NCBI GenBank assembly: GCA_905233565.1
Contig: CAJOCL010000006.1
Coordinates: 1-56,426 of the forward strand
From: an uncultured Synergistales bacterium
GTDB taxonomy: Bacteria > Synergistota > Synergistia > Synergistales > Aminobacteriaceae
Direction of reading: 5' to 3'
DNA: 56,426 bases
Below the pieces are notes generated by a model, which saw only the letters and a program-made list of their open reading frames with translations, ran no database searches and was not told the DNA's origin. The position numbers and the translations under genes are program-made. Shown in pieces: positions 9,839 through 43,949 of this stretch; within the stretch, counting starts at the first letter, position 1; each line of letters opens with the position of its first letter.

Positions 9839-12382
9839 TTGCAAGTGAACGTTAATAAAATTTTATTCTCGTTGCTGAATAACGGATTAACTTTTTCAGC
9901 GTCCCCGTCATATGCAGCAGAGTACGATCCTCAGCATACTATGCTCGCGCTCAACATGGCAATAGTTTCAATCAACAGAATAATAACGACTCAGGACAGA
10001 ATCGTTCTTGAACAGGAATATCAGAACATCATAAACAATCTTAGTCTTGAAAATATTGAAAGCGATCACGATATGACCGCCCTTTACCGCGATATGATGT
10101 CCGTTATTTCAAGAAAGAGGCTGCACGATGAGGACGCGGAATTTCTGCAGGGCCGTTATGACCGAATGGAAGAAAAATTCATGAAAGATACTTTGGGCAG
10201 TATTAAACCTTCCGGGTCAAACATCTTCAGCTTTGTCGTAAGCCTTGCCGTTAAGTCCATGTCTTCATATTTTTCGTACAAGTATTCAAAGTCAGAAATT
10301 GCAGAAGGGTTAAACGGTGAACGCTGGAAGCTGACAAAAGAAGATATAACAGACTGCAATCAGCTTCAGGAACGCCTGTTAAATTCGTCATGGAATTTGT
10401 TGCGTCAATACAAACTCCCTGACAATTACCGCCTTGTTCAAAGAAGCCTTGACGATTTTTACAAGGCCGTCAGTGAAACAGAACAGAAGCGGAAATTAAG
10501 AATGCTGCGGGCGCTTGAAAAGGATTTCCGGGTTTATCCGCCTTACTGGTATTACAGGGCAAGGACTGCTCAGGCTTTGAATGACGATCAAGAGGCTCAT
10601 TCATGTTTTGAGAAGTTCAACGAAACTTGGAGGCCGGTACTTCGTCATGATCCGTACAAAGTCGAGGCTGTGAAGTTCAGAATAGCGGAACTTGTAAGGA
10701 ATGGGGATCTTTCGGATGATGAAAGGCGCGAGGCTCTCAGCCTTCTTGAAGTCATGACCGCTAACACTCCCCGTGAAGACTGGGCGGATAATCTTTTCGC
10801 CGGATTTGTATATTTCCTGCTTGGCGAGAAGAACAGAGGGATTGAAATTGTTGAAACTAATGTTGATTTCGGTTATGGCGTTGACGCGAGCAAAGCAATG
10901 CTGGCTCAGATGAAAAGCGGTGAATTGAATTTTGGAACGCTGCCTTCAGAACTTGCAGAATTGGATAAACAGCTTGCGGAGGCATTAACCAAATATTTTG
11001 AAGGTCAGGAAGACGAAGGAGTAAGGCAGGATAAATCGGAGGCCGTAAAATGGTACCGCAAAGCTGCTGAACAGGGTCATGCTACGGCACAATACAATCT
11101 TGGATGTATGTACAACCTCGGCGAGGGAGTAAGAGAAGATGACTCGGAGGCCGTAAAATGGTACCGCAAAGCCGCTGAACAGGGTAATTCTTGGGCACAA
11201 TACATTCTTGGAAATATGTACTACGACGGCGAGGGAGTGGAAAAGGATAAATCGGAGGCCGTAAAATGGTACCGCAAAGCCGCTGAACAGGGTAACGCTG
11301 TGGCACAAAACTGGCTTGGATTTATGTACTATAACGGCGATGGAGTAAGGCAGGATAAATCGGAGGCTGTCAAATGGTACCGCAAAGCCGCTGAACAAGG
11401 TAACGCTTCGGCACAAAGCCGTCTTGGATGTATGTACAACCTCGGCGAGGGAGTAAGAGAAGATCAATCGGAGGCCGTAAAATGGTTGCGCAAAGCCGCT
11501 GAACAGGGTTATGGTTGGGCACAAGACTGTCTTGGACATATGTACTACAACGGCTATGGAGTGGAAAAGGATTTTTCGGAGGCCGTCAAATGGTACCGCA
11601 AAGCCGCTGAACAGGGTCATGCTCAGGCACAAACCAGTCTTGGACATATGTACTACAACGGCTATGGAGTGGAAATGGATAAATCGGAGGCCGGAAAATG
11701 GTACCGCAAAGCCACTGAACAGCGTAATTCTTGGGCACAAAGAAATCTTGGGGCTATGTACGGCAACGGCGAGGGAGTAAGGCAGGATAAATCGGAGGCC
11801 GTCAAATGGTATCGCAAAGCCGCTGAACAGGGTCATGCTTGGGCACAATACAGTCTTGGAGAAATGTATTACGACGGCGAGGGAGTGGAAATGGATTTTT
11901 CGGAGACTGCTAAATGGTACCGCAAAGCCGCTGAACAGGGTCATGCTTCGGCACAATTCCATCTTGGATGGATGTACAGCCTCGGCCTTGGAGTGGAAAA
12001 GGATAAATCGGAGGCCGGAAAATGGTACCGCAAAGCCGCTGAACAGGGTCATGCTGATGCACAATACCGTCTTGGAGTGATGTACAGAGTGGAAAAGGAT
12101 GACTCGGAGGCCGTAAAATGGTACCGCAAAGCCGCTGAACAGGGTCATGCTTGGGCACAATTAAGTCTTGGGGCTATGTACGGCAACGGCGAGGGAGTGG
12201 CGCAGAACTATAAAACAGCGTACATGTGGTATTATCTCTTAACTTTAAGCGGTCTTAATTGCAATGACGAGTTAAGGAAACTTGAAGAAGGCCGATCAAG
12301 TTCCGCAAAAGTCTCAAAATCCGAAGCTCAGGAGGCCAGAGCGGAAGCACAGCGAAAATACAACGAAATCAAAGCGCGTTAA
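9839..12382 (+). CDS. Large Sel1-repeat protein with helical N-terminal domain
   Basis: 847-residue protein. Residues about 1-30 hold a weak signal-peptide-like segment (Lys-Ile-Leu-Phe-Ser-Leu-Leu, ending Ser-Tyr-Ala-Ala-Glu). Residues 35-380 are a helical domain I do not recognise, with TPR-like stretches around 240-370. Residues about 390-800 are 11 to 12 Sel1 repeats that are nearly identical (Glu-Ala-Val-Lys-Trp-Tyr-Arg-Lys-Ala-Ala-Glu-Gln-Gly). The last repeat diverges and is followed by a basic/acidic tail. One late repeat lacks four residues. The start is TTG at 9839 with GGAG six bases upstream; a GTG at 9845 is an alternative. It is monocistronic, between rpmB and a terminator. The role is probably a protein-interaction scaffold, but the partner is unknown. 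Confidence 0.8.
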   Translation: MQVNVNKILFSLLNNGLTFSASPSYAAEYDPQHTMLALNMAIVSINRIITTQDRIVLEQEYQNIINNLSLENIESDHDMTALYRDMMSVISRKRLHDEDAEFLQGRYDRMEEKFMKDTLGSIKPSGSNIFSFVVSLAVKSMSSYFSYKYSKSEIAEGLNGERWKLTKEDITDCNQLQERLLNSSWNLLRQYKLPDNYRLVQRSLDDFYKAVSETEQKRKLRMLRALEKDFRVYPPYWYYRARTAQALNDDQEAHSCFEKFNETWRPVLRHDPYKVEAVKFRIAELVRNGDLSDDERREALSLLEVMTANTPREDWADNLFAGFVYFLLGEKNRGIEIVETNVDFGYGVDASKAMLAQMKSGELNFGTLPSELAELDKQLAEALTKYFEGQEDEGVRQDKSEAVKWYRKAAEQGHATAQYNLGCMYNLGEGVREDDSEAVKWYRKAAEQGNSWAQYILGNMYYDGEGVEKDKSEAVKWYRKAAEQGNAVAQNWLGFMYYNGDGVRQDKSEAVKWYRKAAEQGNASAQSRLGCMYNLGEGVREDQSEAVKWLRKAAEQGYGWAQDCLGHMYYNGYGVEKDFSEAVKWYRKAAEQGHAQAQTSLGHMYYNGYGVEMDKSEAGKWYRKATEQRNSWAQRNLGAMYGNGEGVRQDKSEAVKWYRKAAEQGHAWAQYSLGEMYYDGEGVEMDFSETAKWYRKAAEQGHASAQFHLGWMYSLGLGVEKDKSEAGKWYRKAAEQGHADAQYRLGVMYRVEKDDSEAVKWYRKAAEQGHAWAQLSLGAMYGNGEGVAQNYKTAYMWYYLLTLSGLNCNDELRKLEEGRSSSAKVSKSEAQEARAEAQRKYNEIKAR
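11020..12200 (+). repeat. Tandem 108-bp Sel1-coding repeat array
   Basis: About 11 copies of a 108-bp unit lie in tandem inside the Sel1 gene, with strong identity at DNA level around GGAGGCCGTAAAATGGTACC and CGCAAAGCCGCTGAACAGGG. One copy (near 12075-12100) is 12 bp shorter, still in frame. Conservation of third codon positions suggests recent amplification or gene conversion. The array also creates a long antisense open frame that I treat as an artefact. Confidence 0.9.
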
Positions 12383-33162: not shown

Positions 33163-34659
33163 TTATTTAATTCTGACTTTTTTTAATGCAATTAACAAAA
33201 GACTGAAACTTAAAAATGAAAATCCTGAATGACAGCCGCTTCCTGAAGAACCCGAAACATGAACACCCTGCACCAGCCATTTGTTCAATAATGCTTTAAT
33301 CTCCGTGCTTAATTCTTCTTCCATTTTCTGTATCCTGACATAGTGGGCATCTGTCGAAGAGACAAATACATGAATATTTTTATTTCCCGTCTCAGGAAGT
33401 CTCATAAAATACCAAGGGTCAGAATTGCCGTAAATCATGATTACGTTGCTCGCATTTGTCTCCGTCCATTCAAGCATTTTATTTCTCATGGCCGGGTTGA
33501 AGCTGAATGTGTCAAGCTGTCTTTGAGTGAGCGTTGCGAGTGCCATATAATTTTTTTCCGTTTCTGCCGTTAAATCCATTTAAAGCCCTATCTTTGCCAG
33601 CTCATCGCGCAGAGGCTGCAAACGAAAGCCGTAATTTCCATTTTCCATAACCGCATGTATCTCATAGGGAAAAGATAATTCTCTGTTTGCTGAAAAAGAA
33701 TCTTCGTTTTTAATAAACAAACTTAAAAGGCCGTCCAAGAATTTTTGATTTTCTTTAGTGCGCGGAGTTATCTTCATTACCTCGTCAAACGAAGCAAAAT
33801 TTTGATCCTCCATCCATACTCCGTAGACAATATCTACAACCATTTTTTCAAAATCACGCGAGACCGTTGCAAGGGGATATTTATTTTCCGAATATAAATC
33901 TTCCGATATAAGGCGCGGCTGAAGGTAGTCGCGGTTTTTTATTGCTTCAACCTGAAAATCAAGCATTAAATCACGGTATGCTTTTGCTTTTTCTTCTCCG
34001 TAACGTTCATTTCCGATTGTGTTATAAATTGCATTGAAAGCGCGGTCGTCATCTATTCCGTTGCAGAATGGGGCAACATATGAGACGTAAGCGTCAGCGT
34101 ATTTCGGGAAATAATAAGCAAAAACATTTGTCGCCTGTCCGCCCTTGCTTGTTCCCGTAAAGACCCAGCGGCCTGAGAGAATTTCTTTTAACTGTTCAAT
34201 TATGTTATGAAAATCATTCGAGGCGTTTTCATCGGTTAAATATTCCCATAACTCCGTGCCGTCAGTTGAAAGCCCTTCCGGTTTTGATTTTGAAAAGAAA
34301 CGGTATTCAACATTAAAATAATTTCCGTTGAACATTTTTGAAATTTCATGTTCGTCGTTTCTCTCAAAATAATTTTCCTGAAGTTCGTAGCCGTCCACGT
34401 TCATTACGTTTACATTATCATAACCCCTGAAGCCTATTTCAACGCGTTGCGTGAAAGTCCCTAAACCGGGATTGTTCCAGTCGATATACTGAACGAAGGT
34501 TACAATATATTTTTCAGCAAAAGGCTTTGAATCTCCGCTCTGCACTATAACATCAACTGCAGCAACGCTCTAAAGCTTCAATAAATCATCTCTGAATGAT
34601 GCTGCTGACGTTCCGCAAAATGATAAAAGCAAAAATAATAACAAAAAAATTTTTTTCAT
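33163..34659 (-). pseudogene. Exported S37-like tripeptidyl aminopeptidase pseudogene with two in-frame stops
   Basis: One continuous reading frame from ATG 34659 to 33163 resembles an S37 (PS-10) serine peptidase, but is interrupted by TAG at codon 30 (about 34570-34572, just after the signal peptide) and by TAA at 33580-33582. Both are single in-frame stops with no frameshift, and the sequence on each side is well conserved. The nucleophile motif Gly-Thr-Ser-Lys-Gly-Gly is in the middle part. The likely catalytic Asp (Gly-Asn-Ser-Asp-Pro-Trp) and His (Asp-Ala-His-Tyr-Val) lie after the second stop, so no fragment can be active. The C-terminus (Gly-Ser-Gly-Cys, then a membrane helix and Lys-Lys-Val-Arg) resembles the Synerg-CTERM signal. 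A GTG at 34545 could start the middle fragment, without signal peptide. Confidence 0.82.
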
Positions 34660-34748: not shown

Positions 34749-36362
34749 TCAGCTATTATGGGCTTTCAGTATGTCAAATACCTCGCGCTCATCATTCGAT
34801 GTCAGGAGTCTTTCTCTTTCCTCAGCAGTAAACCCCGAAAGAAATTCCCTCATACTCAGCGACATGCAGTCAGGATTATCCTTATACTTCGAGTGAACCT
34901 GCACTCCCTTCGATATATCGCCGCTGTCTGTTTTGTCCGGCTCTTCATTTGAGCTGTCATTAAATTTCCTGAGGCTTTCAAGTCCTTCATGTCTGACCTT
35001 CCAGAGTATTCTCGGTGCGATTTCGGCAAATATCTCCTTAGCCTCTTCGCAGACACCTTCAGAGAGGTTATCGGTCTTAGAGGCAGCACAGCCTCCGCCG
35101 CAAAGCATTAATATCGGGCATGTTTTGCAGGGGGTCATTTTGTCGACGGTTCTTGTACGCCACTTCGACATTGAGAAATCGTAAAGGAATCTGCCTTCCT
35201 CTTCGTCTACGATTCCGACAGCCTTATCGTCTCTTGCTATGACGTTCCAGCACGAATATATCAGCCCGTCAGTACCTATAACGTTCATTCCGCTTTCGGC
35301 ACCGCAGTATATTGTCCGCATTGACGGCCATGATTTTTTGTCCAGCCATTGCGCAAAAGACCTCGCCGAACTTCTGTATGCGCTGTCAAGGCTTGCCGCT
35401 TCCGTATAGTCTGAGCCCGTTCTCATAAGCTCTCTCACTACATCTCCGTCACTCACGAAATTTTCTTCCGTAACATGGAAATACTCAAACGCTGACTTGA
35501 AGTAATACGAGAAATTTTTATACCCGGTTAAACCTCTTGATTTCAGCTCATCAATCAAAGCCCTTATACCCGAAATGTTTGTCTTGTTCACATTCACCCG
35601 CATTGATATTTCTATGTCATGATCAAGCGCAAGTCTCATGTTCTCCATTATCTTGGCATAGCTTTTTCCGCCTCCTGCGAGCGGTCTCATACGGTTATGT
35701 ACTTCATCAGTCCCGTCAACAGTTATCTGAAGCATGTTGAACTTGTACTCTTCAAGTATATCTATGAACTTGTCCAGATCATAGCCGTTGGTTATTGCCT
35801 CAACTGACATTTCAAGTTCACGGCATTTACCGCATATATATCTTATGAGTTCCTTGTTCTGTGCGAGTAAAGGCTCTCCGCCGAAAAGAGTGCAGCTTTT
35901 TACGCTGAAGCCCCGTTCCTTGTAGTTTTTAATCTGCGCGAAAACAGCGTCAACAAGTTCCCTGCTCATTGTGCGTTCGAGCCATTCTTTTCCGCGTTCA
36001 AGCCTGTGGCGTTCGTAACAGTATACACACCTGAAATTGCAGTTGTAAGTCGGCAGGAGTATGAGACCTATACCATTACGGCTCTGTACTATTGTATTTA
36101 TATGGGAAATTATACGGAGGTCTTCGTTTTCACGGGCTTCATTTTCGGTGAGATGTCCGCGTTCCGTAAGCAGTTCAATTCTTGAAGGGCTTAGGGACGA
36201 AAGCAGTGAAGGGTCATTAACGGCCTTAGCGATGATTTCATACTCTTCGGGCAAAATCATATCGACAGCACCGTAGAGGCCGTTCACTAAGGCATATTCG
36301 CCGGATTCAACGCCGTCTGAATTGATTAACGGCAGTATTGTGTCATATTTGCTTAACTTCAA
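34749..36362 (-). CDS. Radical SAM/SPASM peptide maturase
   Basis: 537-residue candidate RiPP maturase. Residues 1-95 are an N-terminal domain that may bind leader peptide. The radical SAM cluster motif is Cys108-x3-Cys112-x2-Cys115 (Asn-Cys-Asn-Phe-Arg-Cys-Val-Tyr-Cys-Tyr) with Gly-Gly-Glu-Pro at 161-164. A SPASM-like domain follows, with Cys353, Cys371, Cys412, Cys415, Cys421, Cys425 and Cys438 for auxiliary clusters. Residues 450-537 are an extension of unclear role. The start is TTG 36362, nine bases after AGGAGGA. Such enzymes form thioether or carbon-carbon crosslinks on precursor cores; Cys-containing cores next door favour thioethers, but the product is not predictable. Last gene of the RiPP operon. 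Confidence 0.9.
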   Translation of the reverse strand: MKLSKYDTILPLINSDGVESGEYALVNGLYGAVDMILPEEYEIIAKAVNDPSLLSSLSPSRIELLTERGHLTENEARENEDLRIISHINTIVQSRNGIGLILLPTYNCNFRCVYCYERHRLERGKEWLERTMSRELVDAVFAQIKNYKERGFSVKSCTLFGGEPLLAQNKELIRYICGKCRELEMSVEAITNGYDLDKFIDILEEYKFNMLQITVDGTDEVHNRMRPLAGGGKSYAKIMENMRLALDHDIEISMRVNVNKTNISGIRALIDELKSRGLTGYKNFSYYFKSAFEYFHVTEENFVSDGDVVRELMRTGSDYTEAASLDSAYRSSARSFAQWLDKKSWPSMRTIYCGAESGMNVIGTDGLIYSCWNVIARDDKAVGIVDEEEGRFLYDFSMSKWRTRTVDKMTPCKTCPILMLCGGGCAASKTDNLSEGVCEEAKEIFAEIAPRILWKVRHEGLESLRKFNDSSNEEPDKTDSGDISKGVQVHSKYKDNPDCMSLSMREFLSGFTAEERERLLTSNDEREVFDILKAHNS

Positions 36363-36410
36363 AATTTTAAGTCCTCCTAATTCTTCACGAGTGTGAAATT
36401 TGCCTGAAAG

Positions 36411-36506
36411 TCAGCGGGCTATTTGTCTTCCTTTTGCCAGAGCGAGAAGTTCATCAACGGTCTTGCAGTTCGTTGCGTTGCGTATCTGTTCCTTCGTGAA
36501 CGTCAT
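36411..36506 (-). pseudogene. Truncated fourth Nif11-like RiPP precursor (leader only)
   Basis: Behind a GGGAGATG site, ATG 36506 opens a 31-residue frame whose first 25 residues copy the precursor leader (Met-Thr-Phe-Thr-Lys-Glu-Gln-Ile-Arg...Asp-Glu-Leu-Leu-Ala-Leu-Ala-Lys), then ends Gly-Arg-Gln-Ile-Ala-Arg and stops at 36411. The rest of the leader, the Gly-Gly site and the core are missing. An internal deletion that joined the leader to the sequence around the old stop explains this. It lies between the intact precursors and the maturase. Confidence 0.8.
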
Positions 36507-36571
36507 GATAATTCATCTCCCTTGAGTAATTCCCCCCCTGAAGCTCAGGGGGAGCGTCAAGCCTCAGCAGG
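36507..36571 (-). repeat. RiPP-locus intergenic hairpin repeat, copy 1
   Basis: About 65 bases between precursor A and the truncated precursor. It contains two hairpins (read on the minus strand): AGCC-TGCTGA-GGCT, then CCCCCTGA-GCT-TCAGGGGG, followed by a ribosome site. There is no T-run, so it is not a classical terminator. Confidence 0.8.
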
Positions 36572-36808
36572 CTATTTTTCTTTCGGGCAATTATCCTTGC
36601 AGAAACGGCCACAACGATCATAATCAATACCACCCGCGACCTGAGCGAGTTCGTCATCAGTGAGCTTGCGTTTGCCCGTGATAGCAGCGATGTACTCTTC
36701 GGCCTGTTCGCGCGAAAGTTCAACGCCCTCACTCTTAGCATAAGCGAGAAGCTCATCAACCGTCTTGCAGTTCATTGCGTTGCGTATCTGTTCCTTCGTG
36801 AATTTCAT
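36572..36808 (-). CDS. Nif11-like RiPP precursor A
   Basis: 78-residue precursor. The leader (1-60) has the Nif11-like pattern Thr-Val-Asp-Glu-Leu-Leu-Ala-Tyr-Ala-Lys-Ser-Glu-Gly, ending Leu-Thr-Asp-Asp-Glu-Leu-Ala-Gln-Val-Ala-Gly-Gly, the usual double-glycine cleavage site. The core of 18 residues is IDYDRCGRFCKDNCPKEK with three Cys spaced C-x3-C-x3-C. Start ATG 36808 has AAGGAGGAG nine bases upstream. Leader is almost the same as in B and C; the core is unrelated except for Cys and a basic end. Probable substrate of the maturase at 34749. Confidence 0.85.
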   Translation of the reverse strand: MKFTKEQIRNAMNCKTVDELLAYAKSEGVELSREQAEEYIAAITGKRKLTDDELAQVAGGIDYDRCGRFCKDNCPKEK

Positions 36809-36871
36809 TATAGTTCTCCTCCTTTGAGTAATTCCCCCTGAAGCTCAGAGGGAGCGTAAAGCCTCAGCAGG
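36809..36871 (-). repeat. RiPP-locus intergenic hairpin repeat, copy 2
   Basis: Second copy of the intergenic unit, between precursors B and A, with the same AGCC...GGCT hairpin and a CCCTCTGAGCTTCAGGGGG stem (one wobble or mismatch against copy 1), ending in the AAGGAGGAGAACTATA ribosome-site block. Confidence 0.8.
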
Positions 36872-37102
36872 CTATTTATTCTTTCCGCCTCTCTCATCGG
36901 CGCAATTGCATTCTACGGCGAGCCATCCCCCCGCGACCTGATCGAGTTCATCATCGGTGAGCTTGCGTTCTCCCAGTTGAGCGATGTACTCTTCGGCCTG
37001 TTCGCGCGAAAACTCAATGCCCTCACTCTTTGCATAAGCGAGAAGCTCATCAACCGTCTTGCAGGTCATGGCCTTGCGTATCTGTTCTTTCGTGAATTTC
37101 AT
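36872..37102 (-). CDS. Nif11-like RiPP precursor B
   Basis: 76-residue precursor. Leader nearly identical to precursor A, ending Leu-Thr-Asp-Asp-Glu-Leu-Asp-Gln-Val-Ala-Gly-Gly. The core of 17 residues is WLAVECNCADERGGKNK, with two Cys spaced C-x-C. It also contains an internal Gly-Gly near its end. The ATG at 37102 is preceded by the same AAGGAGGAG block as precursor A. It lies second in the precursor array. Confidence 0.85.
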   Translation of the reverse strand: MKFTKEQIRKAMTCKTVDELLAYAKSEGIEFSREQAEEYIAQLGERKLTDDELDQVAGGWLAVECNCADERGGKNK

Positions 37103-37170
37103 TATAGTTCTCCTCCTTTGAGTAATTCCCCCCCCCCTGAAGCTCAGGGGGAGCGTAAAGCCTCAGCAGG
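37103..37170 (-). repeat. RiPP-locus intergenic hairpin repeat, copy 3
   Basis: Third copy, between precursors C and B. It has the same two-hairpin layout; the C-run/G-run stem is longest here (CCCCCTGA and TCAGGGGG plus extra Gs on the minus strand). Confidence 0.8.
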
Positions 37171-37389
37171 CTATTTGTTCTTGCTGCACTGGGTACACAA
37201 TCCGCTTTTAAAACCACCCACGACCTGAGCGAGTTCCTCATCAGTGAGTTTGCGTTTGCCCTGTGTAGCGATGTACTCTTCGGCCTGTTCGCGCGAAAGT
37301 TCAACTTCCTCACTGTTTGCCAGAGCGAGAAGCTCATCGGCCGTCTTGCAGGTCATGGCCTTGCGGATCTGTTCCTTCGTGAATGTCAT
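37171..37389 (-). CDS. Nif11-like RiPP precursor C
   Basis: 72-residue precursor and the first of the array in transcription order. The leader differs slightly (Met-Thr-Phe, Leu-Leu-Ala-Leu-Ala-Asn-Ser-Glu-Glu) and ends Leu-Ala-Gln-Val-Val-Gly-Gly. The core is only 13 residues, FKSGLCTQCSKNK, with C-x2-C. It follows a candidate internal promoter by about 30 bases and has AAGGGGGTG as ribosome site. The truncated copy at 36411 also starts Met-Thr-Phe, so it is probably closest to this one. Confidence 0.85.
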   Translation of the reverse strand: MTFTKEQIRKAMTCKTADELLALANSEEVELSREQAEEYIATQGKRKLTDEELAQVVGGFKSGLCTQCSKNK

Positions 37390-37423
37390 GATTATTCACC
37401 CCCTTAAGCGGAAATTAATTCAC

Positions 37424-37452
37424 ATTCTACAATATTGCTATAGGTTTCACAA
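37424..37452 (-). promoter_or_regulatory. Internal promoter driving the RiPP precursors
   Basis: On the minus strand TTGTGA (37452-37447), exactly 17 bases, then TAGAAT (37429-37424), about 35 bases before the start of precursor C. The -35 overlaps the stop of the GNAT-like gene. It could give separate, higher expression of precursors and maturase. Confidence 0.6.
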
Positions 37453-38331
37453 TAAAGCAGCTTCACCCTTCGGAATCAGGTCAAGATAAAACCACCGTGT
37501 CCCCTCGCTGAACGCATTACCGAAATAATGAGGGTAAAACCTCTTAAGCGACCTTGCCTTGTCATCAAGAAAGAGCTTAACTACAGAGTATTTTTTCTGT
37601 ATCCTCCGTATCGCTATGGTGATAATCACTACGCCTCCCCTCCTGTATGCCCGGAACTTCCTGGCCGTGTAGAACGACGTAAAATCAACGGTCTTGCTGT
37701 CAATCTCACTGCATACCACCCAGCCCATAACTTCGCCCCTGCACAACGCTATGAAACTCGTATCGGGGTCATAATTGCTCGCTCCCAATGGCGAAAGCAA
37801 AGCAGCGTCAGGATCTTCGGCAATGAGCGCTGAAATTTCACGGACAAACGGCTCCATTTCCTCAAGCGGAATGAACGTGATACCTGTATCGGAGAGCCAT
37901 TCCGGCGAAATGTGATAATCATGCTGCATTCTTTCGGGGAGAATTTCCATGTTGATTTCGTAGTCCCTTCCGTGAACAGTCCTCACTAATTCATACTCAG
38001 GGTAGAATACAGCGACCGAATGCATAAGAGCGAAATAAGGATCATTTTTTGCGTCAGTGTAATCTGCTCCATGAGGTTCGGGGTAACGCCAGTTGAAAGT
38101 CTCCGCGCCTAACTCCTGACCTGATGAGATGAGTTCGGCGAGTGCATGTCTTATCACATTATCGTCTTTGTATTCGCTTTTCAGGTTTATGTTTCTGATA
38201 CGCAAACGGGTTTTCATTAAAGGGCTGAAATCAGCTTTTATCATTCCTGCGTAAAGGCCGTTATCCATAATAATGCTTAAAGTAATTTCCCTGTGAAGGT
38301 CAAACGAATAAACATCCATAAAATTTTCCAC
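37447..38331 (-). CDS. GNAT-like acetyltransferase in the RiPP locus
   Basis: 294-residue protein I recognise only weakly. The C-terminal half (about 190-285) looks like a GNAT fold: Ile-Ala-Leu-Cys-Arg-Gly-Glu-Val-Met-Gly-Trp-Val-Val (beta 4), Val-Asp-Phe-Thr-Ser-Phe-Tyr, then Lys-Phe-Arg-Ala-Tyr-Arg-Arg-Gly-Gly-Val-Val as a candidate acetyl-CoA loop. The N-terminal half may be a second, degenerate copy. It lies 17 bases after the ABC permease and just before the precursors, so it may acetylate the peptide or protect the host; both are inference. Confidence 0.6.
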   Translation of the reverse strand: MENFMDVYSFDLHREITLSIIMDNGLYAGMIKADFSPLMKTRLRIRNINLKSEYKDDNVIRHALAELISSGQELGAETFNWRYPEPHGADYTDAKNDPYFALMHSVAVFYPEYELVRTVHGRDYEINMEILPERMQHDYHISPEWLSDTGITFIPLEEMEPFVREISALIAEDPDAALLSPLGASNYDPDTSFIALCRGEVMGWVVCSEIDSKTVDFTSFYTARKFRAYRRGGVVIITIAIRRIQKKYSVVKLFLDDKARSLKRFYPHYFGNAFSEGTRWFYLDLIPKGEAALL

Positions 38332-38348
38332 CTGTTCTTTCTGAAATA

Positions 38349-39578
38349 TTACTCAGTTCTCAGTGCCTCAATCGGGTCAAGCTGAGACGCTTTCCACGCC
38401 GGCCACAGTCCGAAAAGCATTCCGACAAGAGCCGAGAATCCCGAAGCTATTATGACAATATCAGCCGATACTGAGGCAGGCCAGTGAAATGTATTGGCGA
38501 TTACAGCAACTGCTGCGGCAGCCAGAGCGATTCCGATAATTCCGCCGACAGCCGAGAGAACAGCAGCCTCCGTGAGAAACTGAACTCGGATATTTGACGG
38601 CCTTGCGCCTACGGACATTCGTATTCCGATCTCGTGAGTACGTTCCGTAACCGTAACCAGCATTATGTTCATGATACCTATACCGCCTATGAGAAGCGAT
38701 ATGCCTGCAACGGAACTCAGCATTATTGAAAGGGCATCTATTGTCTTCTCAGTGTTTTCGAGTACTTCGGTGAGCTGATATACAGTGAAGTCATCGGAGT
38801 TTCCTGATTCATCATTGATTCTGTGCCTCTGACGGAGTATCGATTTCACTTCGTCTTCGGCAGCTCCGAGAAGCTCGCGGCTTTTTGCCTGAACGGTTAT
38901 TCTGTGTACGCTGTCGTTGTTGGTGCCGTAATGTACCAGCCTCCTCAGAGCCGTAGTTACAGGGACAATGATAATATCATCATCATCATTGCCGAGAGCG
39001 TCAACTCCCTGCTCCGTTAAGACGCCTATTACCCTGAAGGGTATACGTCCGATTCTTATGAGCGAATCAGTCGGGTCTGACTGCCCGAAGAGTTCCCTTG
39101 CAGGGGTAGCACCGAGAACACAGACTTTGTTGCCTGAGCGGACATCATTATCGCTGATGAAGATTCCGCTTTTAACCCTGAAAGGCCGAATCTTGAGAAA
39201 ATCTTCGGTTGTTCCGCGAATTGAAGTCTTCCAGTTGCTTCCGCCGAAAATGACCTGAGAAGTAACGGTGATTTGAGGGACTGAACATGTCAGCGTGAAA
39301 CTCTCATCGGCAATGGCTTTTGCGTCCTCCAGAGTGAGCGAAAACCAGCCGCCAGAAGAAGCTCTGGTACCGCTGCTAGTCTTTGGCTGTGATGGATATA
39401 TGTGTATTATGTTTTCTCCAAAACTAGCTATGTAACCTTCAACTACAATCGCTGCACCCCTTCCCAGTGAGACCATAACTATAACGGAGCCTACGCCTAT
39501 TATTATTCCTATCATCGTAAGCAGGGAACGCACCCTGTTCCCCGCAAGAGAACGAAAAGCGGATTTGATTATTTCCAT
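38349..39578 (-). CDS. MacB-like ABC transporter permease
   Basis: 409-residue FtsX/MacB permease. An N-terminal helix (Ser-Leu-Leu-Thr-Met-Ile-Gly-Ile-Ile-Ile-Gly-Val-Gly) is followed by a large extracytoplasmic domain (about 45-285) and three C-terminal helices with Gly-Gly-Ile-Gly-Ile-Met-Asn-Ile-Met-Leu-Val-Thr-Val-Thr-Glu-Arg-Thr and Pro-Ile-Glu-Ala-Leu-Arg. First gene of the RiPP operon. No ATPase gene is adjacent (the next gene upstream is divergent), so its nucleotide-binding partner must be elsewhere. It could export the mature peptide or give self-resistance. Confidence 0.86.
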   Translation of the reverse strand: MEIIKSAFRSLAGNRVRSLLTMIGIIIGVGSVIVMVSLGRGAAIVVEGYIASFGENIIHIYPSQPKTSSGTRASSGGWFSLTLEDAKAIADESFTLTCSVPQITVTSQVIFGGSNWKTSIRGTTEDFLKIRPFRVKSGIFISDNDVRSGNKVCVLGATPARELFGQSDPTDSLIRIGRIPFRVIGVLTEQGVDALGNDDDDIIIVPVTTALRRLVHYGTNNDSVHRITVQAKSRELLGAAEDEVKSILRQRHRINDESGNSDDFTVYQLTEVLENTEKTIDALSIMLSSVAGISLLIGGIGIMNIMLVTVTERTHEIGIRMSVGARPSNIRVQFLTEAAVLSAVGGIIGIALAAAAVAVIANTFHWPASVSADIVIIASGFSALVGMLFGLWPAWKASQLDPIEALRTE

Positions 39579-39701: not shown

Positions 39702-42700
39702 ATGAAACACAAATTGCGTTTTTTATTCTGCGCCCTGCTGCTTCTGCTGCTCGGCGCGTGCGCCTGCTACGGCGTAACTGTTACCGGCTATGACGGGACT
39801 CAGCTCTCACTGAGCCAGATTCCCGACATCATACGGCATGTTACTGGTCAGACTTCGGGGGATTTGAGCTTCAAGAAGGAGTCTCTATACATGTACGGCG
39901 CGTTTTTCAGTGCTAATCCCCCCAACGCACAAAAAGATGTTTACTCATTCAACACTGACGGCAGCAATAATCACGTGGCCTCATGTGGTGATACTACTGA
40001 CTACAATCTCAGCGGTCCAATAGATTATCAAAACGTGGCAGCCATCACAACCCAAACAGTGTGGGACAGCGACAAGGGAAAACTCGTACTGAATTTTTAT
40101 CCCGGGGGTGATACATCAGCTCTGTATAATCAAGCCGCTTATGTAACGGGCAATGCTAATGACGGAAGCGCGAACATTGATGACGGTGATTTCTACGATG
40201 TAGGAGGTGGAGATACTCCAGTAGTACAAGGCTTATTAGTTGACGTTAAAGGCGGTATGACAGTCAACGGCTATGACGGCGAAGTTACAGCATACCTCGT
40301 GAGGGACGGCGCAACAATCAAAGTATATGCGGGATATATCAGCCAGTACGCTGGGGACCCTTGGTGGGTAACATACGCGGATAGGGCAGAGACAGGCTCA
40401 TGGTCAACAACTATCACCAGCGATGTACCTACAATGCGTGCTCCGTATAACACTCCATATATCCCCGTAAGCATGGTAGTTGGCGACTTCAACAATGACG
40501 GCTACAAGAATGAGATTGCCGTAGCTTATTCGGATAGAGCAGCGGTGCGCTATGTAGTTCTTCAGGCGACACAAACAAGCAACAATCCAATTAATCCCGA
40601 CTTCGCGCTCAATGTGCTGAACAATGGTGATGTCGGCTCATACAACTACAACGCCTACTACGAAGGTTTCTACAACGGAACCTACGATAGCTACGGCGGA
40701 CAAATGGACGGCCTTACCGCTATGTATTCAGTTGCTACAGCTACAGGGGATTTTGACGGGGACGGACAATCGGAATTTGCTGTAGTGTGGAGAGACACCA
40801 CGCCTAATACTTTCTTAAGATTTGCAATGCTTCCTGGTGATAGTGGTTGTTTGTTCATTGGCTACACAGGAAAGATTCACGTCAAGACATATAAATGGAA
40901 CGGAGGCGGTTACATCTCTGAAGAAGATGTGCAGGCGTTTGATGCTTATTCTTATGAAAATGACTCTGACCGCAACATGCAATGGCACAATCTTGACCTT
41001 CCACTCGGAGTGAAAGCCACTGCCGGAGATTTTGACGGGGACGGGCGCGATGATATTGCCGTTCTGCGTATCATGCTTCAGTGTTCAGAGTACTACAACT
41101 ACAATGATGATACTTTATGGTACTCAAATTTTGTTTTCGGTGGGTTCGTTGACTGGTACACATTCAACAGCGGCAGCATTCATCCGAATTATCGCGCTCA
41201 TTCATGGGAGCCTACAGACCCGACCACAGTGGGATCACAGCCGCCCAATTACGGCGTCAACCAAAATGGCTGGGTAGGTATACGATCAACTGGTAACATG
41301 TGGCTTGGAAACATCTCCCAAACTGGAATAGATGTGATCAGTGAAAAGGATCCGGGAAAGCAGAACCAAATCAGGCAGATTTACTACGTACAACCTTTAA
41401 CAGGAGCGCAGGACGCTTACCCCATTATTGACCGTGAATTTGACATCATCGCCGGGAAATTCTCAGGCAGAATCGGAGATGTTGACAACATGATAATTTG
41501 CGATGACCTCGTAATTAAATATCCGCAGTGGTCAAACTCAGACGGAAACAAGCTGAGGAGTCATGTAGCTCTGATGACGAATATCCCGGGCACAACGAAT
41601 TGGGGAACTCAGGTTAACGAAATTACGTCGCTGTCGGACAGGAATCACCTTCTGGCCTTTACAAAGGGTGATTATCTCAATGAGAGCGTAACGCTCGGCG
41701 ACCCTGTGAAGACGGTTGACCGCTCGGACCTTGATTACACGGCGATACTCCAGATGATGCCTTACCATGTGGACAACATAACGCCTGACGGGAGATCGCT
41801 CACGAGGGATCCGCAGAATTTCACGCTCCGCCTCGACACGGCCATAAACTACAACAACTCTTCAACGGAGTCGGACACAAAGAGCATGGAATACAGCATG
41901 ACGTCCACAGCGGAGACGATATTTGCGCTGGACAGCGGCATAACGCGCGGAGCGTCAAAAACTTTTCAGGGCATAAGGGGTATAACGTCTACATTTCTCG
42001 GCGAAACTCCTGCAGGGAAAGCACTTGAGGGCATCGGAAAATTATGGGACAAAATGAAGGACACCGTAACAACGACAAAAACTACATCGAACCAGAACGA
42101 ATCGACAAGCATGATGTCAATCACAACTCAGGCGAATTACCTCGACACGCTGTACGTGAACTCGTCAAACCGTTATCTGTGGCGTTATCCTGTAGAGAAT
42201 CCGCCGTCATGGATTCTTGAGCGGACATTAAGCAATTACGGATCTTTCGACCAGTCACAGGCAAATGCAAAGCAGACGTATATAACTTTCGCCATGAGCG
42301 AACCTGCAATCCCCACAGCGACCAAAGGTGTGAACGACTCCAATTACCAGCCCTACCACGAATCTGGAAACCTGTTCTCTTACCCTGCCTCGCTTGAACA
42401 GGTTGAAGGCTACGAGGGGCATACATCACTCCTCCAAAACGGAGACAGCGCAACGAAGAGGTGGGACGGCGCGGCGTTCAATGAAACAATAACGTTCATC
42501 AACTCGACAACGGATCAGGAATCAGACAAGAAGACCAACAAAATAGGAGTTATAACAAGATTCCTCTCAGCGATTGACAACCTGTTCGGCACAAGTTTTG
42601 CGAGCATTCCTTACGATACGGTGTCAAGTTTCACGAGAAACGTAACGGACAAGGAGAGCATATCCGTAAACATTCCCGTTGCCCTCAGCGGTGCGCAGTT

Positions 42701-43949
42701 CACGGCGGTGTTCGAGCCGTATCTTGATGTTACGGGTGCAACAATGGTGGCGTTCGCGGTGGAAGGTTTCAGGAATATTGACGCTCTCTGGGGGCCTGAA
42801 AGCCTTTACTCAAAGAAGCCTGACCCGTCTTTCCTTCTGCCTGAGAAATTCAACTGCACCGCTCTCCCCCAGCCCGGCAATCAGTTTGCGGCGTTCGCGG
42901 GGAACAGCAATGATGCTACGGCAATAAGGGGAAGGGGCATAAGATATACAGTTTCTGACTACGACATGGAGACGAACAACCTCCTGATGAACGGCCTGAA
43001 GTACAAGATACGTATACCTGTCTACAATGCCAGTTTCGTCAACGCGCCTGAGTTCAACGTCAGGCTGTCTTACGCGAAGGAGCTGAAATACAACGCGGTG
43101 AAAACGACAATAGGCGAGTTTACTTTCGGCAGCACGGTCGAAAACACGCTTGCGGGGCGCGGCGGCGGAAATCACAGGCAGTACGCTGAATTTGAATGGA
43201 CACCGAATGTAGATCAGGGGATATATTACCTCTTTGCTGAGATTGACCCGGAGCATAAAATTGATGAAGTCCACGAGGACAGGTACGATTCGGCAGGGAA
43301 TATTGTCGACTTCGGCGCAAACAACATGGCGTATTTCAAGATAGGCATAGCGTCAACGGATGCAGTCCCGTTTGACAGGACGCAGCTTGAGACTCAGTAC
43401 GGGAGCGCATCATACGAGGGGAAATTTGCGGCTGCGGATATAAACGGTTCTGAATTTCCTTTTGTTGAATGGGTGAAGGCTGACGGGCTTGACTTCAGGG
43501 ACTTCATAGAGCAGAAAGTTGACGGGAAAACAGCTCCTGTAACGGCTGAAGTTGAAGTGAAGTACAGCGGCGAACACCTCATGACGGACGCAGTTCTTAT
43601 AGGGTACGCGCTGAAACCCGAGTCATCAGGCAAGGACGTTTCAGAAATCACTGACGCTGACATAGGTTTGATATTCGAGAAGGAGCATTTTGCGCTGTTT
43701 CCCGGCGAGGATCACAAGCTGCATTTCAGGATTAATCCCAAAGACCTCGAAAACGGGGTCGGATTCCTCCTCAAGGTTTACGGCCATGAATACAAACTTA
43801 CGGACATAATCTACGGGAGTTCCGGAACAGAAACGGCTATAGGAGTCGGGAGCGCATCGAGCGGAGGATGTGAGGCATTCTCAGCAGGCATGGCCGGAGT
43901 AATGGCACTGATTTTCATAATGAGAAAACGCGGAAACTGCAACCGTTAA
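39702..43949 (+). CDS. Large exported FG-GAP-like protein with C-terminal Synerg-CTERM-type signal
   Basis: 1415-residue exported protein. The signal peptide (1-24) ends Leu-Leu-Gly-Ala-Cys, a possible lipobox. Three calcium-binding FG-GAP/VCBS-like units are visible: Asp-Phe-Asn-Asn-Asp-Gly near 262, Asp-Phe-Asp-Gly-Asp-Gly near 350, and Asp-Phe-Asp-Gly-Asp-Gly near 442, which suggests a beta-propeller in residues 170-470. A CARDB-like beta-sandwich is plausible near 1130-1210. The last 30 residues have Ser-Gly-Gly-Cys, a hydrophobic helix, then Arg-Lys-Arg, resembling the Synerg-CTERM sorting signal. Ligand unknown. Strong promoter and ribosome site. Independent of the RiPP operon, which is divergent. 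Confidence 0.85.
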   Translation: MKHKLRFLFCALLLLLLGACACYGVTVTGYDGTQLSLSQIPDIIRHVTGQTSGDLSFKKESLYMYGAFFSANPPNAQKDVYSFNTDGSNNHVASCGDTTDYNLSGPIDYQNVAAITTQTVWDSDKGKLVLNFYPGGDTSALYNQAAYVTGNANDGSANIDDGDFYDVGGGDTPVVQGLLVDVKGGMTVNGYDGEVTAYLVRDGATIKVYAGYISQYAGDPWWVTYADRAETGSWSTTITSDVPTMRAPYNTPYIPVSMVVGDFNNDGYKNEIAVAYSDRAAVRYVVLQATQTSNNPINPDFALNVLNNGDVGSYNYNAYYEGFYNGTYDSYGGQMDGLTAMYSVATATGDFDGDGQSEFAVVWRDTTPNTFLRFAMLPGDSGCLFIGYTGKIHVKTYKWNGGGYISEEDVQAFDAYSYENDSDRNMQWHNLDLPLGVKATAGDFDGDGRDDIAVLRIMLQCSEYYNYNDDTLWYSNFVFGGFVDWYTFNSGSIHPNYRAHSWEPTDPTTVGSQPPNYGVNQNGWVGIRSTGNMWLGNISQTGIDVISEKDPGKQNQIRQIYYVQPLTGAQDAYPIIDREFDIIAGKFSGRIGDVDNMIICDDLVIKYPQWSNSDGNKLRSHVALMTNIPGTTNWGTQVNEITSLSDRNHLLAFTKGDYLNESVTLGDPVKTVDRSDLDYTAILQMMPYHVDNITPDGRSLTRDPQNFTLRLDTAINYNNSSTESDTKSMEYSMTSTAETIFALDSGITRGASKTFQGIRGITSTFLGETPAGKALEGIGKLWDKMKDTVTTTKTTSNQNESTSMMSITTQANYLDTLYVNSSNRYLWRYPVENPPSWILERTLSNYGSFDQSQANAKQTYITFAMSEPAIPTATKGVNDSNYQPYHESGNLFSYPASLEQVEGYEGHTSLLQNGDSATKRWDGAAFNETITFINSTTDQESDKKTNKIGVITRFLSAIDNLFGTSFASIPYDTVSSFTRNVTDKESISVNIPVALSGAQFTAVFEPYLDVTGATMVAFAVEGFRNIDALWGPESLYSKKPDPSFLLPEKFNCTALPQPGNQFAAFAGNSNDATAIRGRGIRYTVSDYDMETNNLLMNGLKYKIRIPVYNASFVNAPEFNVRLSYAKELKYNAVKTTIGEFTFGSTVENTLAGRGGGNHRQYAEFEWTPNVDQGIYYLFAEIDPEHKIDEVHEDRYDSAGNIVDFGANNMAYFKIGIASTDAVPFDRTQLETQYGSASYEGKFAAADINGSEFPFVEWVKADGLDFRDFIEQKVDGKTAPVTAEVEVKYSGEHLMTDAVLIGYALKPESSGKDVSEITDADIGLIFEKEHFALFPGEDHKLHFRINPKDLENGVGFLLKVYGHEYKLTDIIYGSSGTETAIGVGSASSGGCEAFSAGMAGVMALIFIMRKRGNCNR

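Follow-up and report, generated by a model that had tools for sequence, protein, structure and literature searches.

The operon on the minus strand at 34749-39578 of the window (the whole 56,426-nucleotide stretch analysed here, from an uncultured Synergistales bacterium of the rumen, phylum Synergistota) is very probably a RiPP operon, in which a radical SAM/SPASM maturase is encoded beside three Nif11-like precursors. The genes that a first-pass annotation had listed there were all found in place when the sequence and its open reading frames were checked (Table 1), with the maturase, the GNAT-like gene and the three precursors open and preceded by ribosome-binding sites, and its RiPP reading is well supported by the co-occurrence of maturase and precursors, which are found together in genomes of the genus and of many other, unrelated rumen bacteria. 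The pairing of Nif11 precursors with radical SAM enzymes is already known (models TIGR04064 and TIGR04103), and the maturase family described here is a new branch, real and testable, of this type of system. What was a guess from one genome has become a family with 79 or more maturase loci, cultured strains among its members and a specific prediction for the crosslink. With the terms tried, we found no description of the maturase family among the open-access papers searched, nor any mention of Nif11 in those parts of two rumen gene-cluster surveys that a term search covered.

Table 1. Features of the operon in the window, and Hint-bearing precursors at other loci of the maturase family
Feature	Coordinates	Strand	Evidence
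MacB-like permease without ATPase	39578-38349	minus	scores above the PF12704 and PF02687 cut-offs; lineage-specific neighbour, probably outside the core
GNAT-like accessory protein	38331-37447	minus	weak PF00583 in three orthologs; only in maturase-bearing genomes
Precursor P1, core FKSGLCTQCSKNK	37389-37171	minus	TIGR03798 19.8 bits, below cut-off; leader homology
Hairpin after P1	37133-37153	minus	genome copies only between precursors; folds well
Precursor P2, core WLAVECNCADERGGKNK	37102-36872	minus	passes TIGR03798, 36.8 bits
Hairpin after P2	36834-36854	minus	genome copies only between precursors; folds well
Precursor P3, core IDYDRCGRFCKDNCPKEK	36808-36572	minus	TIGR03798 29.9 bits, below cut-off; leader homology
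Hairpin after P3	36534-36554	minus	genome copies only between precursors; folds well
Fourth precursor unit, deleted	36506-36411	minus	25 leader codons; Gly-Gly and core lost
Radical SAM/SPASM maturase, 537 aa	36362-34749	minus	PF04055 78.9 bits; 32-sequence alignment; predicted structure; CteB best PDB match
Hint-bearing precursor	L144:4567-5271		
Hint-bearing precursor	L157:4608-5312		
Hint-bearing precursor	L168:5022-5702		
Hint-bearing precursor	L156:5228-6019		
Hint-bearing precursor	L169:1914-2708		

The precursor array and its maturase

The precursor region is built of four tandem repeat units of ~300 bp, three of them complete, as the annotation had it, and a fourth, deleted one that it had overlooked. 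In each of P1-P3 a Gly-Gly precedes a short variable core that includes Lys. Only P2 scores above the cut-off of the NCBIfam model for Nif11 leaders (TIGR03798, 32.3 bits), and the leaders of P3 and P1 are 80% and 71% identical to that of P2. Despite the conservation of leaders and 3′ flanks in the DNA of the complete units (85-88% and 83-86% identity), their cores are nearly unrelated, at 40-46% identity versus 27-31% for shuffled cores. The same pattern is seen when P1 is compared with its positional equivalent in the closest relative (G002), where identity is 97% in the upstream flank, 82% in the leader and 43% in the core (shuffled, 34%). Of 43 genus genomes, exactly six have strong leader matches (E<1e-20), and each of these also has the maturase; since such matches are confined to maturase-bearing genomes of the genus, the precursor finding is not a chance one. 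The inter-precursor hairpin has three copies genome-wide, one after each complete precursor, which ruled it out as a dispersed genomic repeat, and, as the sequence after it has no T-run, it may be an mRNA-stabilising element.

The array shares with Nif11-derived RiPPs (TIGR03798), whose precursors have been described together with NHLM exporters (Haft, Basu and Mitchell 2010, PMC2887384), the leader family, the Gly-Gly site, paralogous precursors, a C39/NHLM exporter in the genome and a mix-and-match use of modifying enzymes. It differs in that the modifying enzyme is a radical SAM/SPASM protein rather than a cyclodehydratase or LanM, and in that the exporter lies outside the operon.

The maturase, which starts at a TTG behind AGGAGG, has the CX3CX2C motif (C108-X3-C112-X2-C115), the radical SAM core and the seven-Cys SPASM domain (C353, C371, C412, C415, C421, C425 and C438) that mark a radical SAM/SPASM RiPP maturase, and all of these cysteines are invariant in an alignment of 32 homologs. 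An RRE-like N-terminus and a C-terminal extension flank these domains; the predicted structure (pLDDT 88.9) begins with an RRE-like beta3-alpha3 fold. The SCIFF (ranthipeptide) maturase CteB (5WGG/5WHY) is the best match both by fold and by sequence profile, with SkfB and SuiB also among the fold matches. With CteB and the freyrasin enzyme PapB the system shares the RRE-like start, the radical SAM core, the SPASM domain and Cys-rich cores, although CteB, the closest solved fold, is only 17-18% identical to the window maturase in a structural alignment.

None of the six maturases of the clade that were scanned reached an NCBIfam cut-off. The best whole-enzyme scores were for CefB (NF038107; 152 bits, cut-off 600), TIGR04463 (149, cut-off 525) and Clo7bot (140, cut-off 600), systems from which the window cores differ in having no Cys at every fifth position. 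TIGR04064, a radical SAM enzyme model named for pairing with Nif11-like peptides, scored 86 bits against 519, and the PapB model 119 against 340. For SCIFF, the maturase scored 60.8 against 425 (TIGR03974), and TIGR03973 was not among the precursor matches. In freyrasin, Cys is joined to Asp with the spacing CX3D; the window system is set apart from SCIFF and freyrasin by its Nif11-like leader and its CX2[D/N/E] spacing.

Crosslink motif, processing and export

We counted D/N/E at ten offsets around each core Cys and compared the counts with shuffles within each core that kept Cys fixed. A C-X2-[D/N/E] motif is present in all ten Cys-bearing Synergistaceae cores (5.7 expected, p 0.0009), a set that is not fully independent, as the pooled data in which the +3 offset first came to notice had four Synergistaceae loci among them. 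Among 73 non-redundant cores from other taxa there are 52 such sites versus 30.5 expected (z 4.9), with 40 of the 73 having no such motif. Of the ten offsets, +3 is the only one enriched in both core sets, the other nine giving no enrichment of D/N/E. The window motifs are CSKN, CADE and CKDN.

We favour side-chain thioethers because Asp, Asn and Thr are known ranthipeptide acceptors (PMC8326336) and the closest structure is that of a thioether former; Cys-to-side-chain, ranthipeptide-like thioethers are the leading prediction for the product, each crosslink being expected to cost 2 H. A minority reading, unlikely yet the best-placed of the alternatives, keeps the RiPP operon and changes the bond, to an alpha-carbon sactionine thioether, a C-C cyclophane or another radical modification, in which case the C-X2-[D/N/E] spacing could instead mark a structural motif, a disulfide or a metal site. 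SPASM maturases of similar score (CefB, TIGR04463, Clo7bot, DynA and YhhB) make other products, SkfB and SuiB are among the fold matches, and Tyr and Pro are also enriched at Cys+1; against this, CteB is the best match, the known ranthipeptide acceptors agree with the motif, and D/N/E enrichment is seen at +3 only.

Building on the thioether prediction, we consider the following detailed mechanism to be fairly probable, with its enzymatic steps, crosslink type and processing in trans inferred. The maturase would probably use its RRE-like N-terminal domain to grip the conserved Nif11-like leader and then, with SAM and its Fe-S clusters, would join core Cys to side chains, most likely those of Asp, Asn or Glu at the +3 position, giving ranthipeptide-like thioethers. 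The peptide would then be cut after Gly-Gly and exported by a C39/NHLM transporter encoded on another contig (C22), and the GNAT-like protein may act on the same peptides, either as an acyltransferase for a lysine or amine or in self-protection. Tandem duplication of the leader unit and fast core turnover would yield several different products. If the prediction is right, it would add a peptide class that is likely active between rumen microbes, and would point to a single exporter shared by several RiPP loci.

The annotation had noted that no C39 peptidase is nearby, which a genome search bore out for the window, although there is one C39 gene elsewhere in the genome. Its expectation that processing relies on other genes now has a concrete candidate in this single C39/NHLM exporter, which passes TIGR03796 and lies on C22 beside another Nif11 precursor. 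A C39 is present in all seven maturase-bearing genomes versus 16 of 37 genus genomes (p 0.001, with phylogeny ignored). G002 has an NHLM exporter next to the operon, in divergent orientation, and of the 79 maturase loci 27 have a relative of the C22 exporter in their fetched flanks. Leader processing in trans by the C22 exporter is likely on the basis of this co-occurrence. The C22 locus (L083, 3159-12469) is a second RiPP locus, with two ACGX-like radical SAM proteins (one above the model cut-off), a Nif11 precursor ending GGDCSCPTCGIEPWDW, an HlyD-like protein, the C39/NHLM protein, a second NHLM transporter and two neighbours with no assigned family.

Accessory genes and turnover within the genus

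The GNAT-like gene more probably starts at ATG 38319, with AGGTGG 8 nt upstream. Its inclusion in the system, as first proposed, is supported by exclusive co-occurrence with the maturase, while its identity as a GNAT remains a sub-threshold match: PF00583 scores 15.9-17.3 in three orthologs against a cut-off of 20.7. A search of PDB sequences with the protein gave no match, and a structure prediction from three usable sequences was discarded (pLDDT 41). NpuN, the GNAT of the selidamide/nostolysamide group, acylates Lys of a Nif11-type precursor (PMC13060382). The operon resembles this group, by description of NpuN, in having a GNAT-like gene beside Nif11-type precursors and Lys in the cores, and differs in that the characterised members are lanthipeptides.

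The permease (409 aa) has MacB_PCD and FtsX domains only and not the fused ATPase and permease of MacB. Its proposed role as the export machinery found no support: it lies in the operon only in the window's genome (G000) and G002, and nearly all genomes of the genus have MacB-like paralogs of ~55% identity; being a local paralog in just two operons, it was ruled out as a core part. It is improbable that the GNAT-like gene and the permease belong to a resistance or detoxification unit of their own, with the RiPP system being the precursors and maturase only. The permease is close to the GNAT-like gene, no GNAT was found in G034, where maturase and precursor are present, and the GNAT-like gene is missing from maturase loci outside Synergistaceae, which ruled it out as a family-wide feature. 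However, it occurs in five of 188 Synergistota genomes, every one of them maturase-bearing (within the genus, p 5e-5), and in G016 it lies next to precursors with the permease absent. In G005 the GNAT-like gene and a precursor stand at the ends of two different contigs and are likely adjacent.

The maturase is present in seven of the 37 genus genomes searched (G000, G002, G035, G005, G034, G016 with two copies, and G009 as fragments), six of which also have strong leader matches, found in no other genome of the genus. In both G016 copies (L047, L048) the maturase and GNAT are interrupted, in G035 (L051) the GNAT is truncated and a second copy is a pseudogene, and in G009 (L049, L050) the system survives as fragments. 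These damaged copies in congeners point to fast gain and loss of the system. Decay of the window operon itself, with no product in this strain, is nonetheless very improbable, for although a fourth precursor is deleted, Gly-Gly is missing from two of the three G002 precursors and copies are damaged in G016, G035 and G009, the maturase, GNAT-like gene and three precursors of the window are intact, with their ribosome-binding sites and all cluster cysteines. Upstream of a maturase fragment in G009, where a leader precursor would be expected, stands a 29-aa hydrophobic ORF with a ribosome-binding site, MIKKLEISIAVLGLLALSSISSYVSIIKN (G009:C118, L050:562-651, minus).

The wider maturase family

When bacterial and archaeal genomes were scanned, the 79 or more maturase loci came mostly from ruminant-gut MAGs and rumen isolates of Selenomonadaceae, Acidaminococcaceae, Lachnospiraceae and Spirochaetia, a rumen skew that habitat bias may shape, as the genome collection is rich in rumen genomes. 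The loci with precursors are mostly those of rumen Selenomonadales, Lachnospiraceae, Spirochaetia and Synergistaceae, and cultured members of the family include Selenomonas ruminantium HD4, Succiniclasticum ruminis DSM 9236 and a Butyrivibrio sp. The pairing of precursor and maturase in other genomes, on which the annotation had let its reading stand or fall, recurs widely. A leader profile made from Synergistaceae alone matched ORFs in 60 of 79 loci and, refined once, placed a leader ORF ≤2.5 kb from the maturase in 59 of them. In the other 20 loci no leader ORF was recognised; some lie at contig ends and some belong to a divergent clade.

A quick, midpoint-rooted tree places the Synergistaceae enzymes in a single clade nested among sequences of Bacillota and Spirochaetota, and near-identical cores, such as VKTCYMVDGCAFKCGTLKDC, recur across bacterial families. 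Together, the nested clade and the recurring cores point to transfer between rumen bacteria. One core, [VI]KTCYM[VI]DGCAFKCGTLKDC, is the same or nearly so across families and phyla (L139, L145, L148, L157), with variants at L131, L136, L144, L147, L154, L181 and L189, as if by recent transfer or under strong constraint.

It is conceivable, and in our view rather doubtful, that the family makes a distinct ranthipeptide-like class across rumen phyla, in which Cys would be joined to the +3 Asp, Asn or Glu within Nif11-led hypervariable cores, and in which GNAT-like acylation in Synergistaceae would give lipidated, crosslinked peptides, maybe for competition or signalling in the rumen.

In five Nif11-leader precursors of the maturase family (Table 1) the core is directly followed by a C-terminal Hint (hedgehog/intein-type) domain, and four of four scanned against Pfam were above a Hint cut-off. 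With the terms tried, we found no paper on Hint-bearing Nif11 precursors. The domain suggests that these precursors cleave themselves, which would trim the core at its C-terminus or activate it there.

Several other genes of the window were noted in passing. A gene for a Peptidase S37-like secreted protein (33580-34659, minus) has an in-frame TAG just past the signal-peptide region, and its long ORF restarts at GTG 34545. Divergent from the operon, a 1415-aa FG-GAP repeat protein (39702-43949, plus) ends in SSGGCEAF...MALIFIMRKRGN, a C-terminus that we take to resemble the Synergist-CTERM sorting signal. An 847-aa protein (9839-12382, plus) has, by eye, a long Sel1-like tandem repeat array (AVKWYRKAAEQGHA...).
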